Below, in pieces: positions 4,371-9,388 of a stretch of 12,425 bases of DNA. The stretch comes from Bacteroidota bacterium. GTDB taxonomy: Bacteria; Bacteroidota; Bacteroidia; JACCXN01. The notes below the pieces were generated by a model. It had not been told where the DNA came from. It ran no database searches and was given only the letters and a program-made list of their open reading frames with translations. Each line of letters starts with the position of its first letter. The stretch's first letter is position 1. Where the stretch lies: the NCBI GenBank assembly GCA_013696965.1, contig JACCXN010000045.1, positions 1 through 12,425 on the forward strand, given 5' to 3'. Made by a program: the position numbers and the translations under genes.

Positions 4371-5018
4371 ATGGTTCATATTTTAGGAAAGAATAACTCT
4401 ATATTTAATCAATTCATTGCAGAATTACGTGATGTAAATGTTCAACAAGATTCCATGCGATTTAGGAGAAACCTTGAAAGAATAGGAGAGATTTTCGCCT
4501 ACGAAATAAGTAAGTCTCTCTCCTATAAATCCACTGAAATTACTACACCTCTTGGAATTGCCCAGGCAAATCTCGCAACTGATCAGCCTGTAATTGGATC
4601 AATTTTGCGTGCGGGCCTTCCTTTGCATCAAGGAATTCTAAATTATTTTGATCGTGCCGAGAATGCATTTGTTTCTGCATACCGTAAACCTCATAAAGAC
4701 GGGACTTTTGATATACAAGTAGAATATGTTTCAAGCCCTGATCTTACCGACAGAATACTTATTCTTGCTGATCCAATGTTGGCAACTGGAGCATCCATGG
4801 TGCTTACATATAAGGCATTATTAATTAAAGGAATTCCAAAGCATACCCACTTTGTTGCCGCCATTGCAAGTGCTGAAGGCCTTGAATATGCAAAACGAAA
4901 TCTTCCACCAGAAACAACAATCTGGATAGGGGAGGTAGATGATGAACTTACCGCTCAATCCTATATTGTTCCTGGTTTGGGTGATGCCGGGGATCTTGCT
5001 TTCGGAACAAAAGTATGA
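4371..5018 (+). CDS. upp: Uracil phosphoribosyltransferase
   Basis: The enzyme makes UMP from uracil and PRPP in the cytoplasm (pyrimidine salvage). The 215-residue protein is close to the usual length of about 208. It shows the family's characteristic segments: GSILRAGLPL (about 76-85), the PRPP-binding loop DPMLATGAS starting at D134, and the uracil-binding C-terminal motif PGLGDAGD from P201 followed by FGTK. A 63-base gap separates it from the preceding acyltransferase gene, so it probably has its own promoter, though I could not find a well-matched one. The stop overlaps the next start as ATGA, coupling it to a pyrimidine nucleotidase. ATG at 4371 is the only start that keeps the normal N-terminal helix. 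Confidence 0.95.
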   Translation: MVHILGKNNSIFNQFIAELRDVNVQQDSMRFRRNLERIGEIFAYEISKSLSYKSTEITTPLGIAQANLATDQPVIGSILRAGLPLHQGILNYFDRAENAFVSAYRKPHKDGTFDIQVEYVSSPDLTDRILILADPMLATGASMVLTYKALLIKGIPKHTHFVAAIASAEGLEYAKRNLPPETTIWIGEVDDELTAQSYIVPGLGDAGDLAFGTKV

Positions 5019-5830: not shown

Positions 5831-6139
5831 TTATTCAACTGCATCATTAGATCTGATAGTTTCAGTTTTTGTAGCATCAGTCTTTGTAGCATCAGTCTTT
5901 GTAGCATCGGTTTTTGTAGCATCCGCTTTTTTTGCGCAGCATGGTTTAGTTGCTCCTTTATCACAACTCTTTGCTTCAGTTTCTGTTTTAGCACATGACT
6001 TAGCATCTTTTTTCTTTTTATCTTTTTTTCCTTTTTCTTCGTGAAAGCAAATTGCATTCTCGTTAGATAATACTACTGAAGAAGCAGTTGTTGCTCCGAT
6101 GTATCCTACAAGTGCTAATGCTAAAAATAAATTTTTCAT
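5831..6139 (-). CDS. Small exported Cys/Lys-rich protein with KTDAT repeats
   Basis: I do not recognise this 102-residue protein. Residues 1-20 form a hydrophobic signal-like segment after MKN (LFLALALVGYIGATTAS), so export to the periplasm or beyond is likely. There is no lipobox cysteine within it. The mature part has five cysteines (31, 49, 59, 67, 68), a lysine-rich stretch at 36-48 (KGKKDKKKKDAK) and a C-terminal tandem repeat at 72-93 of about four KTDAT units. The sequence is low in complexity, so homology methods may mislead. The cysteines and CxHxE-like start (C31, H33) could bind metal or form disulfides, which is speculation. It is convergent with yjjG across a shared terminator and has a -7-type box upstream. 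Signal peptide, start context and promoter support a real gene. Confidence 0.72.
   Translation of the reverse strand: MKNLFLALALVGYIGATTASSVVLSNENAICFHEEKGKKDKKKKDAKSCAKTETEAKSCDKGATKPCCAKKADATKTDATKTDATKTDATKTETIRSNDAVE
5871..5924 (-). repeat. 15-bp tandem repeat encoding KTDAT units
   Basis: On the plus strand gtagcatcagtcttt occurs twice without change (5871-5885, 5886-5900), followed by a copy with two changes (5901-5915) and a partial copy (5916-5924), about 3.6 units. A unit of 15 is a multiple of three, so copy-number change by slippage would keep the reading frame. It lies within the small exported protein gene. Confidence 0.93.
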
Positions 6140-6234: not shown

Positions 6235-6894
6235 TTAATCTATTGTTCCTAAAATTGTTTCACCACCTTTTACTTTCTGATTTAAAGTAACTTCTATTTT
6301 TGCATTTAGTGGAAAAAACACATCCACCCTTGATCCGAATTTAATAAAACCCAGTTCTGTTCCTTGTTTTACTTGTTGTTCAGGTTTGCAGTAATAAACT
6401 ATTCTCCTTGCAAGAGCTCCTGCAATTTGTCTTATAAGTAGTTCTTTTCCTGATTTTGTTTCAAGAACAATTGAGGATCTCTCATTTTCGGTGGATGATT
6501 TTGGATGCCATGCAACCAAGTATTTTCCCGGATGGTATTTTACATATTTAACAACACCGCTTACAGGATAACGGTTGATATGCACATTTACCGGGGACAT
6601 AAAAACAGAAACCTGAATTCTTTTATCCTGAAAATATTCATTCTCCAAAACCTCTTCAATAACTACAACCTTACCATCTGCAGGACAAATAACTTTTGCA
6701 TCATCATTTGTAAAGTTTCTTTTAGGGTTTCTGAAAAATTGTAAAACAGTAATCAAAAGGATTGCAGAAATTACATAAATAAAATACCTGAATAAGGTCA
6801 AATCATTTAATAAATAATGTGAAATAAAAATCAGAACTGCTATGAAAAGGATAGCAGCAATTAATGTGGGATAACCCTCTTTGTGAAATTTCAT
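6235..6894 (-). CDS. psd: Phosphatidylserine decarboxylase proenzyme (short form)
   Basis: The enzyme decarboxylates phosphatidylserine to phosphatidylethanolamine at the inner membrane. The 219-residue protein is the compact form. It has two predicted N-terminal membrane segments (about 9-28 and 34-53), then FFRNPKR (53-59), CPADGK with D73, and the conserved FMSPVNVHINR block (98-108). The pyruvoyl processing site is FGS at 186-188. Self-cleavage between G187 and S188 would give the small alpha subunit starting with the pyruvoyl group made from S188. All expected key residues are visible. A terminator separates it from the upstream dehydrogenase gene, so psd should have its own promoter, though none is obvious in the 62-base leader region. 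cdsA, an earlier step of the same pathway, is about 1.7 kb upstream on the same strand. Confidence 0.95.
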   Translation of the reverse strand: MKFHKEGYPTLIAAILFIAVLIFISHYLLNDLTLFRYFIYVISAILLITVLQFFRNPKRNFTNDDAKVICPADGKVVVIEEVLENEYFQDKRIQVSVFMSPVNVHINRYPVSGVVKYVKYHPGKYLVAWHPKSSTENERSSIVLETKSGKELLIRQIAGALARRIVYYCKPEQQVKQGTELGFIKFGSRVDVFFPLNAKIEVTLNQKVKGGETILGTID

Positions 6895-7006: not shown

Positions 7007-8455
7007 TTAATAATTACCTCTGTATCGAATTGCTTTTTCTATTTTTTTAAGAGCAGTAATATAAGAACCTGTTCTCATTGAAGTTTTATACTGCTTGGCA
7101 TTAAACCAAACATTTTCAAAAGCTTGTATCATGTTAATATCATGCTTGGTATTAACTTCTTCCTCTGTCCAGTATATTCCTGAACGGTTTTGAACCCATT
7201 CGAAATAAGAAACTGTAACACCTCCAGCATTCGCTAATATATCAGGTACAACTATAATTCCTTTATGGTGAAGAATTTCATCTGCCTCAGCAGTTGTTGG
7301 TCCGTTAGCACCCTCTACAATTAATTTTGCTTTAATGTCTTTTGCATTATCCTTAGTAATCTGATTTTGGATTGCTGCAGGTACAAGTACATCAACTGGA
7401 AGAGTTAATAATTCTGCATTTGTAATTTCATTTCCACCGTTAAATCCTCTTAATACTCCATTGTTTGCTTGTACATAAGCAATTGCTTTTGAAATATCAA
7501 TTCCTTTTGGATTGTAAAAAGCAGCTGTATGATCAGAAATTGCTAGAATTTTAATTTTTTGATCCTCAAGTAACCTGGCAGCATGTGAACCTACATTTCC
7601 AAAACCCTGAACTGCCGCAGTAGCATGTTTTCTATTCATACCCATCACTTTCATTGCTTCAAGTGTAGTAATCATAACACCTCTACCTGTTGCAGCCTCC
7701 CGACCTTTTGACCCACCAAGAGTAATTGGTTTACCTGTAACAACTCCAGGCTCATTAAATCTTTTTACTTTTGAATAAGCATCTACTATCCATGCCATTT
7801 CTCTTTTTCCTGTTCCCATATCCGGTGCAGGAATATCTTTGTCAACTCCAAAAACATCAGCCATAGAAATAGCATATGCCCTTGTTAATCTTTCAAGTTC
7901 TCCTGTAGACATATGTCTTGGATTACAACGAATACCACCTTTTGCACCTCCATAAGGCAAGTTTGCTACCGCACACTTAAAGCTCATCCAGGCAGCAAGT
8001 GCATTTACTTCATCCAAATCAACATCCATAGCATAACGGATACCTCCTTTTGATGGACCTAGAAAAGTAGTATGAATTACACGGTAACCCATAAAAACCT
8101 GAATTGTTCCATTGTCCATGGTTACAGGCAAACTTACAAGATTTTGTTTTTCAGCTGATTTCAATATTTTTTGAATATCCTCTGCCAAATCGATTTTTTT
8201 TGCTGCAATATCCAATCGTGCCAATACTGCATCAAACATATGTTGGGAAGTATCCGACAATACGTTTACAGCTGTTGCAGATGTTTTTTCATCCAATGTT
8301 TTTTTCTGTGCAGTTTTTTTAACTGGCGATACAGCTGGTTTCTTTGCAGATTTTGCAATTGGTGAAGAATTTGTTTTTTTCACAGTTTTTATAACTGGTG
8401 AAGAACCTGTTTTAATAACAGGTCGTTTTCTTGCTGGTTTGTTTTTTATAGCCAT
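7007..8455 (-). CDS. gdhA: Glutamate dehydrogenase with a basic N-terminal tail
   Basis: This is a Glu/Leu/Phe/Val dehydrogenase of 482 residues that should interconvert glutamate and 2-oxoglutarate plus ammonia. The catalytic domain starts near residue 70. Its residues align by spacing with the clostridial enzyme: K136 (GPSKGGIR), K160 (SFKCAV), catalytic K172 (GGAKGGI) and D212 (PAPDMGT). The dinucleotide fold shows GFGNVG at 284-289. S416 (GGVTVSYFEW) together with K136 favours glutamate over branched-chain substrates. Residues 1-68 are extra: very rich in Lys, Ser, Pro, Thr and Ala, with 12-residue SPxxKxxKK repeats like histone H1 tails. Translation could instead begin at M73 (ATG at 8239), but the open, patterned tail and upstream promoter candidates favour the long form. 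It lies between cdsA and psd with its own terminator. Cofactor preference is not clear. Confidence 0.93.
   Translation of the reverse strand: MAIKNKPARKRPVIKTGSSPVIKTVKKTNSSPIAKSAKKPAVSPVKKTAQKKTLDEKTSATAVNVLSDTSQHMFDAVLARLDIAAKKIDLAEDIQKILKSAEKQNLVSLPVTMDNGTIQVFMGYRVIHTTFLGPSKGGIRYAMDVDLDEVNALAAWMSFKCAVANLPYGGAKGGIRCNPRHMSTGELERLTRAYAISMADVFGVDKDIPAPDMGTGKREMAWIVDAYSKVKRFNEPGVVTGKPITLGGSKGREAATGRGVMITTLEAMKVMGMNRKHATAAVQGFGNVGSHAARLLEDQKIKILAISDHTAAFYNPKGIDISKAIAYVQANNGVLRGFNGGNEITNAELLTLPVDVLVPAAIQNQITKDNAKDIKAKLIVEGANGPTTAEADEILHHKGIIVVPDILANAGGVTVSYFEWVQNRSGIYWTEEEVNTKHDINMIQAFENVWFNAKQYKTSMRTGSYITALKKIEKAIRYRGNY
8297..8425 (-). repeat. 36-bp degenerate repeats encoding SPxxKxxKK units
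   Basis: Residues 11-53 of the dehydrogenase tail consist of a short unit (RPVIKTGS, 11-18) and three 12-residue units: SPVIKTVKKTNS (19-30), SPIAKSAKKPAV (31-42) and SPVKKTAQKKT (43-53). At the DNA level the codons for Ser-Ser-Pro are the same in two units (tcttcacca on the minus strand) while other positions have drifted. This suggests old duplication with selection to keep the Ser-Pro and Lys pattern. Confidence 0.75.
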
Positions 8456-8569: not shown

Positions 8570-9388
8570 TCAGTTAATTAGAGTTAAAAAGATCCAAACA
8601 AATGGTGCTGAGATAAGAATTGCATCAAACCTATCTAGAATTCCTCCGTGACCTGGAAGTAAATTTCCCGAATCCTTTATACCAACTTGCCTTTTAAACA
8701 TGGACTCTGTTAAATCCCCTAAATTGCCTGTGATTGCCAGGATAGCTGCCATTATTAACCAATTTCGAACTGAAAGTTCCGTATAAAATAAAGAAAGAAC
8801 ATAGGCAATAGCAAGTGCTAAAATAAATCCACCTGCAGCTCCTTCCCAGGTTTTTTTTGGCGAAATTCTTTCGAATAATTTTCTTTTACCCATGCTTCTA
8901 CCAGCAAGATATGCGCCCGTGTCATTTGTCCAAATAATTAAAAAATACCCTAATAGTATATTTGAATTAAATATTCCTCCAAATTTTGTTTCAGTATTAA
9001 TAATTAAGAAAGAGAGTAAAGCAAATGGTACTGCTACGTATATTATACCCATTAAACTTACTGCAATGTTTGCAAGGGGAGTTTTTGATTTTCTATATAA
9101 TTCAACAATAAACAGTGAAAATGGAACAAAAAGGGCTAATGAAAGAAACTTAAATTCAATTACCTCAAAAAGAGAAAAAGAGCATATTAGTATGAAAACA
9201 ATTAAGCCAGCAAGTGTTCCAGTGGTTTTCTGAACCTCAAAGCCTGCCTTTGAAGCAATAGAATAAAACTCCTGTAACCCAATAAAAGTTATTATCAAAA
9301 ACAGGATGAAAAACAATACCGGATGAACTATTATTGCACCTATTAGTACTGCAATAAAAATTGCTCCTGTTATACTTCTTGTCAGCAT
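8570..9388 (-). CDS. cdsA: Phosphatidate cytidylyltransferase (CDP-diacylglycerol synthase)
   Basis: This integral membrane enzyme makes CDP-diacylglycerol from phosphatidate and CTP, the precursor of all bacterial phospholipids. The 272-residue protein is almost wholly hydrophobic, with about seven or eight membrane segments. Upstream conserved blocks include WTNDTGAYLAGRSMGKRKL (153-171) and SPKKTWEG (176-183). The family signature is complete near the C-terminus: S229, K232-R233, K238-D239, P245, H247-G248-G249, D252-R253 and D255, in SMFKRQ, KDSGNLLPGHGG and LDRFD. One base separates it from the upstream DUF2007 gene, so they form an operon. The stop is TGA at 8572-8570. psd, which acts later in the same pathway, is on the same strand beyond gdhA; no phosphatidylserine synthase is in the window. 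Confidence 0.96.
   Translation of the reverse strand: MLTRSITGAIFIAVLIGAIIVHPVLFFILFLIITFIGLQEFYSIASKAGFEVQKTTGTLAGLIVFILICSFSLFEVIEFKFLSLALFVPFSLFIVELYRKSKTPLANIAVSLMGIIYVAVPFALLSFLIINTETKFGGIFNSNILLGYFLIIWTNDTGAYLAGRSMGKRKLFERISPKKTWEGAAGGFILALAIAYVLSLFYTELSVRNWLIMAAILAITGNLGDLTESMFKRQVGIKDSGNLLPGHGGILDRFDAILISAPFVWIFLTLIN

Follow-up and report, generated by a model that had tools for sequence, protein, structure and literature searches.

A disordered, lysine-rich arm on a Bacteroidota glutamate dehydrogenase: probable origin by repeat expansion and possible function as a polyanion tether

Introduction

Why should an enzyme of core metabolism begin with a long, lysine-rich tail? This question is raised by a gene on the reverse strand (positions 7007-8455) of a 12,425-nucleotide stretch of Bacteroidota DNA, in the following called the window. 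By translation, the open reading frame encodes a glutamate dehydrogenase (GDH) of 482 amino acids. An earlier note on this DNA had likened the extension ahead of the catalytic domain to the tails of histone H1. In the open-access literature, we found no report of lysine-rich arms on bacterial GDH. Here, we ask whether the arm is translated, how it arose, where else comparable arms occur and what they may do.

Results

Catalytic core and gene neighbourhood

Residues 73-482 together with the stop codon (7007-8239, reverse strand) form a catalytic GDH core of 410 residues, as judged from Pfam, matches to solved chains and the AlphaFold2 fold. Pfam reports the dimerisation domain PF02812 at residues 106-229 (176 bits, cut-off 25.3) and the NAD(P)-binding dehydrogenase domain PF00208 at residues 247-480 (267 bits, cut-off 23.4), while 75 solved GDH-related chains match the protein with a best E-value of 8e-125. 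The substrate-site motifs GPxKGGIRY, KxxxAxxPxGGAKGGI and PAPDxxT are all present. Within an alignment of 34 sequences, K136, K160, K172, P209-D212 and T215 are invariant, and I208 nearly so. The protein is a member of the ELFV dehydrogenase family outside the curated equivalogs: it stays below every NCBIfam equivalog cut-off (best NF040817, 472 bits against 750). We infer the hexameric state and dehydrogenase activity from solved relatives and the family. AlphaFold2 predicts the core fold with confidence from residue 73 on, with a first helix at residues 73-87; the earlier note had placed the start of the catalytic domain near residue 70, in good agreement with this position.

The gene lies between a cdsA-type phosphatidate cytidylyltransferase upstream (8570-9388, reverse strand; PF01148, E 1.5e-60) and a phosphatidylserine decarboxylase, psd, downstream (6235-6894, reverse strand; PF02666, E 3e-47). 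The order cdsA-gdh-psd is also found in two family members whose GDH has no arm, so that the phospholipid neighbours do not explain it. Since the window is a complete contig (G000:C45, 12425 bp), assembly breaks limit the view of the gene context at either end. Beyond psd, the window encodes a protein of 102 amino acids (5831-6139, reverse strand) with a signal-peptide-like start, several cysteines and no Pfam match; its DATKT repeats stem from a 15-bp tandem repeat (5862-5923). Another tandem repeat of the same genome, of 180 bp in about five copies with 88% matches, is located on contig C57 (L113, 11566-12479).

Probable translation of the arm

Several sequence features make M1 the very probable start of translation of the GDH frame. 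M1 is the only ATG before M73. The frame upstream of M73 is open for 84 codons, with several stops in both other frames, and measured against the codon usage of the genome the arm scores 0.35 bits per codon, compared with 0.41 for the body of the gene. The M1 start codon has an A at position -3, a base that favours initiation in Bacteroidetes (PMC6847099). Almost all relatives with 65-77% identity open with a corresponding leader of 14-34 residues (for example MATQTK, MATKTK or MTTKTN). In four of five groups of close relatives this leader shows a pN/pS of about 0.4 or lower, with the core at about 0.15 or lower; the fifth group (L065/L066/L011) gives 0.8 for leaders that differ in length and were compared without gaps.

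An untranslated arm, with synthesis beginning at M73, would fit the observation that M73 sits exactly at the first core helix. This reading is barely credible in view of an upstream frame that is open and coding-like and of relatives that start further upstream with conserved leaders. Moreover, homologues at greater distance have F, L or Y in place of M73, which shows that M73 is not a conserved start.

Composition and repeat structure of the arm

The enzyme thus read starts with an arm of 72 residues that is disordered by prediction, with AlphaFold2 giving residues 1-70 a pLDDT below 50 (mean about 33). Residues 1-53 contain 16 Lys/Arg and no Asp/Glu; their composition is 30% K+R, 11% A, 11% P, 21% S+T and 0% D+E. 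Given no prior hint, Tandem Repeats Finder reports a 36-bp tandem repeat at 8311-8413 (2.9 copies, 70% matches), which corresponds to a period of 12 residues in the protein. At lag 12 the protein has 14 matches, a value that shuffles of the same composition reach at this lag in 0.005% of cases and at any lag from 5 to 24 in 0.28%. On the DNA level, the match fraction at lag 36 is 0.565 and exceeds the maximum over all lags in 5000 codon shuffles (0.545).

All parts of the arm are encoded on the reverse strand. The start codon and basic leader, residues 1-12 (MAIKNKPARKRP, 8420-8455), are preceded by A at -1, -2 and -3 and are the counterpart of the MATKTK/MATQTK leaders of the relatives. Three full repeat units follow: unit 1 with residues 13-24 (VIKTGSSPVIKT, 8384-8419), unit 2 with residues 25-36 (VKKTNSSPIAKS, 8348-8383) and unit 3 with residues 37-48 (AKKPAVSPVKKT, 8312-8347). 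According to the repeat analysis, a partial fourth unit comprises residues 49-53 (AQKKT, 8297-8311). The remaining residues 54-72 (LDEKTSATAVNVLSDTSQH, 8240-8296) form a linker, delimited by repeat analysis and AlphaFold2, that is non-repetitive and near neutral; in relatives the linker is short and ends in a similar H-x-S/K ahead of MFxAVLxRL. Among the repeat copies the pooled pN/pS is about 1.1, based on few sites, and there is no sign of purifying selection on the exact repeat sequence.

The serine-proline pairs S19-P20, S31-P32 and S43-P44, which the earlier note had described as spaced by 12 residues, are exact in the translation, and the repeat was also recovered from the DNA. The SPxxKxxKK formula given there holds for units 1 and 2 and is off by one in unit 3, where SPVKKTAQKK corresponds to SPxxKxxxKK. 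The likeness to histone H1 stands with respect to composition: the arm is rich in Lys, Ala, Pro, Ser and Thr, free of acidic residues and predicted to be disordered. It does not extend to motif or profile. The canonical S/T-P-K/R-K/R motif is absent from the arm, whose units read SPVI, SPIA and SPVK, and the arm alone obtains no Pfam and no NCBIfam match at E up to 1, including linker-histone, Hc1 and Hc2 types. The arm has an H1-like composition and is no member of the histone or AlgP-type families; if it functions at all, it would do so in the manner of their tails.

Origin and rarity among close relatives

In the FastTree phylogeny the window GDH adjoins its nearest relative, L007 (77% identity, support 0.989). 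The leader of L007, MATQTKSSPKNTKKTGDSASQENNNGHQK, holds a single SSPxxTKKT unit, MATQTKSSPKNTKKT (SSPKNTKKT). The simplest account, drawn from these two sequences, is that the arm probably arose by tandem duplication of one ancestral unit. The two family members compared have leaders of only 29-34 amino acids, leaving the window arm without a close ortholog. The earlier note had stated that its reading would fall if close relatives did not conserve the upstream codons as protein; the outcome is mixed. What these relatives conserve as protein is a short lysine-rich leader, while the repeat expansion appears private to the window genome among the genomes compared. The extension itself, which the note had described as seen directly, is real as a coding, basic and disordered sequence that close relatives do not have.

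In a class-wide sample of 395 genomes, a GDH was found in 152 at an E-value of 1e-140 or below. Given a core of 410 residues, an arm of 50 residues needs an open frame of at least about 460, and every such listed entry was read. None of them showed an arm of this kind behind a credible start. Within this set of about 150 homologues from the class, the window arm is the longest. The 528-amino-acid open frame of L081 was rejected as a long tail, with an upstream part that is not lysine-rich and a leader that reads MDTTMNKK... Several matches from the phylum have very long open frames (L154, L159-L162) that seem to stem from chance read-through ahead of normal start codons. Plasmid-borne enterobacterial GDHs that align from residue 5 have annotated starts downstream of the aligned stretch, which indicates chance similarity of upstream DNA.

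Within its own genome the arm is also singular. Searched against the rest of the genome, it matches only itself, and the DNA pattern for SPxxK-x7-SPxxK yields 10 matches genome-wide against 7 in a reversed control, without a second array. Among 295 ORFs in 400 kb of this genome, none has an N-terminus as basic as the arm (net +16 or more). The next most basic one in this sample, at +14, belongs to a ribosomal-protein-like ORF (L122), which from its sequence we take to be L20. The second GDH of the genome (L002) has a short leader only.

An armed GDH clade in another class

A search of the phylum with the arm-plus-core segment of the window GDH returned several GDHs from another class that align into the arm. 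They led to a single family (f97), in which 16 of 22 genomes carry an armed GDH with an arm of 46-75 residues and a net charge of +12 to +30 (the loci of this clade are L173-L180, L182 and L208-L223). The start of these arms is hardly in doubt, since a Shine-Dalgarno-like motif, mostly GAAAGG, directly precedes the arm ATG in all 16. Pooled over the 15 arms longer than 50 residues, the composition is 34% K+R, 12% A, 11% P, 17% S+T and 1% D+E, nearly the same as that of residues 1-53 in the window. The earlier note, which does not mention this parallel, had considered such tails foreign to glutamate dehydrogenases; their recurrence in a separate GDH clade speaks against this.

In a FastTree phylogeny of 89 cores, the nine armed f97 sequences included form one clade with a support of 0.998. 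Its sisters, L181 and L183, are both without such an arm, and the window GDH is placed elsewhere in the tree. Basic arms have thus been gained on GDH at least twice. The f97 arms show a pN/pS of 0.37-0.65, compared with 0.07-0.17 for the core, which argues for an arm that is translated and under loose purifying selection: as far as the sequences tell, their exact order is loose and the basic protein character is retained. Most of the armed genomes also hold an arm-less GDH paralogue. Four outgroup or paralogous GDHs of the family were read as well (L224-L227); their N-termini comprise 6-24 residues and carry a net charge of -1 to -3.

The f97 proteins thus share with the window GDH the enzyme, the place of the arm and a near-identical composition. 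They differ in being more basic, in their Shine-Dalgarno start and in the absence of a tandem repeat of the 36-bp type from the three arms scanned, whereas the window arm has one. Their gene neighbourhood is unrelated to that of the window. In four of the genomes, a similar small protein of about 138-167 amino acids, with no function assigned, is encoded directly upstream of the armed GDH (L204, 6738-7160; L205, 8909-9325; L206, 7813-8316; L207, 7596-8012). The f97 clade is perhaps a better test system than the window gene.

Basic arms on other proteins

In Bacteroidia, the leader of RsfS, a protein that acts on the ribosome, normally measures about 6-24 residues. Among approximately 19 Bacteroidia genomes in which the RsfS start could be read, four carry lysine-rich arms of 56-105 residues instead (L143, L144, L147 and L149); locus L135 was left out, as its start is unclear. 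The situation resembles that of GDH, with a short basic leader in most genomes and a long one in few, although the RsfS arms are richer in Ala/Thr than the window arm. A 400-kb sample of another genome (G485) contained two N-termini whose net charge reaches +16 or above. One of them (L238, 174 amino acids, near 4739) has a Lys/Ala-rich basic N-terminal arm and is presumably a DksA-like protein, by our reading of its sequence; the ORF behind the other (L240) seems to be spurious. These small numbers are suggestive of a tendency of basic arms in the sample towards proteins of the ribosome or RNA polymerase, with GDH as an outlier.

Discussion

Implementing these observations, the joint reading we prefer, at a probability of just under one half, is that of an ordinary GDH whose leader has grown into a disordered cationic arm serving as an electrostatic tether to polyanions. 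Its parts differ in strength. From the sequences, translation, disorder and basic character of the arm are likely, as is its derivation from repeat expansion of the leader; that it binds polyanions, which ligand it binds and whether activity is affected are matters of inference. The proposed course is that a short lysine-rich leader was extended by 36-bp tandem duplication to the present 72 residues. The hexamer expected from the family would then display six arms of about +14 each, which could bind polyanions electrostatically and with avidity. RNA, as such or in ribosomes, or nucleoid DNA would be the most likely ligands, because they are present in every cell concerned. Such binding may place GDH at the polyanion or tune its activity. 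Precedents exist: the H1-like tail of AlgP positions polyphosphate granules (PMC9239181), a lysine-rich tail of the histidine ammonia lyase of Trypanosoma cruzi binds polyphosphate (PMC8561398), lysine-rich peptides coacervate with RNA (PMC6606616), and RNA binding has been reported for bovine GDH, according to a citation in PMC10380284. The tether gains weight from the independent GDH clade with the same kind of arm. What speaks against it is that the window arm is without a close ortholog, that its repeat copies show no constraint on their exact sequence, that the sporadic RsfS arms demonstrate how such extensions can arise without a GDH-specific reason, and that the neighbouring genes give no functional hint.

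The main rival is neutral lengthening. Here, slippage or unequal duplication would have extended the A-rich, structure-poor start region of a Bacteroidota gene, and the product would merely be tolerated. Lysine-rich leaders are indeed common in the GDH clade, and in the own genome the first ten codons after the ATG contain more A (0.384) than those further in (about 0.335), and also more lysine (11.9% against about 7.5%). The repeat is an in-frame minisatellite, like the 15-bp one in the DATKT gene of the window, its copies diverge as relaxed sequence does, and RsfS lengthens sporadically in the same way. Neutral lengthening explains the window repeat and its relaxed copies well. It does poorly with the parallel clade, which keeps its arm across 16 genomes under purifying selection, and it has to accommodate 53 positions without an acidic residue as well as the rarity of such arms among the ORFs sampled. 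On balance we consider it a possible but rather doubtful explanation.

Two further functions were weighed against the tether to RNA or DNA. As a specific polyphosphate sensor, the arm would bind polyphosphate on its lysines, which would couple inhibition or localisation of the enzyme to the state of storage or starvation. This idea has a close precedent in another ammonia-releasing amino-acid enzyme, the histidine ammonia lyase of Trypanosoma cruzi, which binds polyphosphate via a lysine-rich tail (PMC8561398), and the window genome has the polyphosphate kinase PPK1, which makes polyphosphate a possible ligand in that organism. Five f97 genomes tested gave no PPK1 match, so that PPK1-made polyphosphate is not a common ligand there, and we regard the sensor as unlikely. 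Still less probable is an arm that aids assembly, solubility or membrane contact, for example with acidic phospholipids, instead of meeting nucleic acid. The position of the gene between two phospholipid genes would suit it, but the same gene order occurs in arm-less relatives, the neighbourhood of the armed f97 clade is unrelated, and the arm is predicted to be unstructured and has no hydrophobic or amphipathic element.

Taken further, the tether reading would imply that GDH has been armed repeatedly and independently in Bacteroidota to station the enzyme on RNA or the nucleoid, with one of two paralogues regulated spatially or electrostatically; we put this forward tentatively and would not be surprised to see it fail. 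If the arm does tether the enzyme, this would be an uncommon instance in which an enzyme of core metabolism bears a dedicated cationic arm; such an arm evolved at least twice, and one lineage retains it on one of two GDH paralogues. Armed and arm-less versions would then make the debated purposeful binding of metabolic enzymes to RNA or the nucleoid directly testable. A neutral arm, in turn, would illustrate cleanly how H1-like tails are built from nothing when repeats expand in an A-rich start region.

Comparison with known systems

With bacterial Glu/Leu/Phe/Val dehydrogenases (PF00208/PF02812; PDB 4xgi, 3k92, 1b26), the window protein shares the same complete and conserved core from residue 73. 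Solved relatives align from about residue 71 on; their chain before that point is mostly short, and none is described with a lysine-rich repeat arm, unlike the window GDH. The tails of AlgP (PMC9239181) and chlamydial Hc2 (PMC2848022) and the C-terminal tail of histone H1 are Lys/Ala/Pro/Ser/Thr-rich and repetitive, as is the window arm, and the length of the Hc2 tail varies with its repeat number (PMC2848022). There is no kinship in sequence or profile, the window protein has neither a globular histone domain nor canonical SPKK, and its tail, unlike those of H1, AlgP and Hc2, sits on a metabolic enzyme. The T. cruzi histidine ammonia lyase (PMC8561398) is an unrelated enzyme whose C-terminal region interacts with polyphosphate by experiment, whereas the window arm is N-terminal and only a putative polyanion binder; both are, likewise, amino-acid-degrading enzymes with a lysine-rich terminal region.
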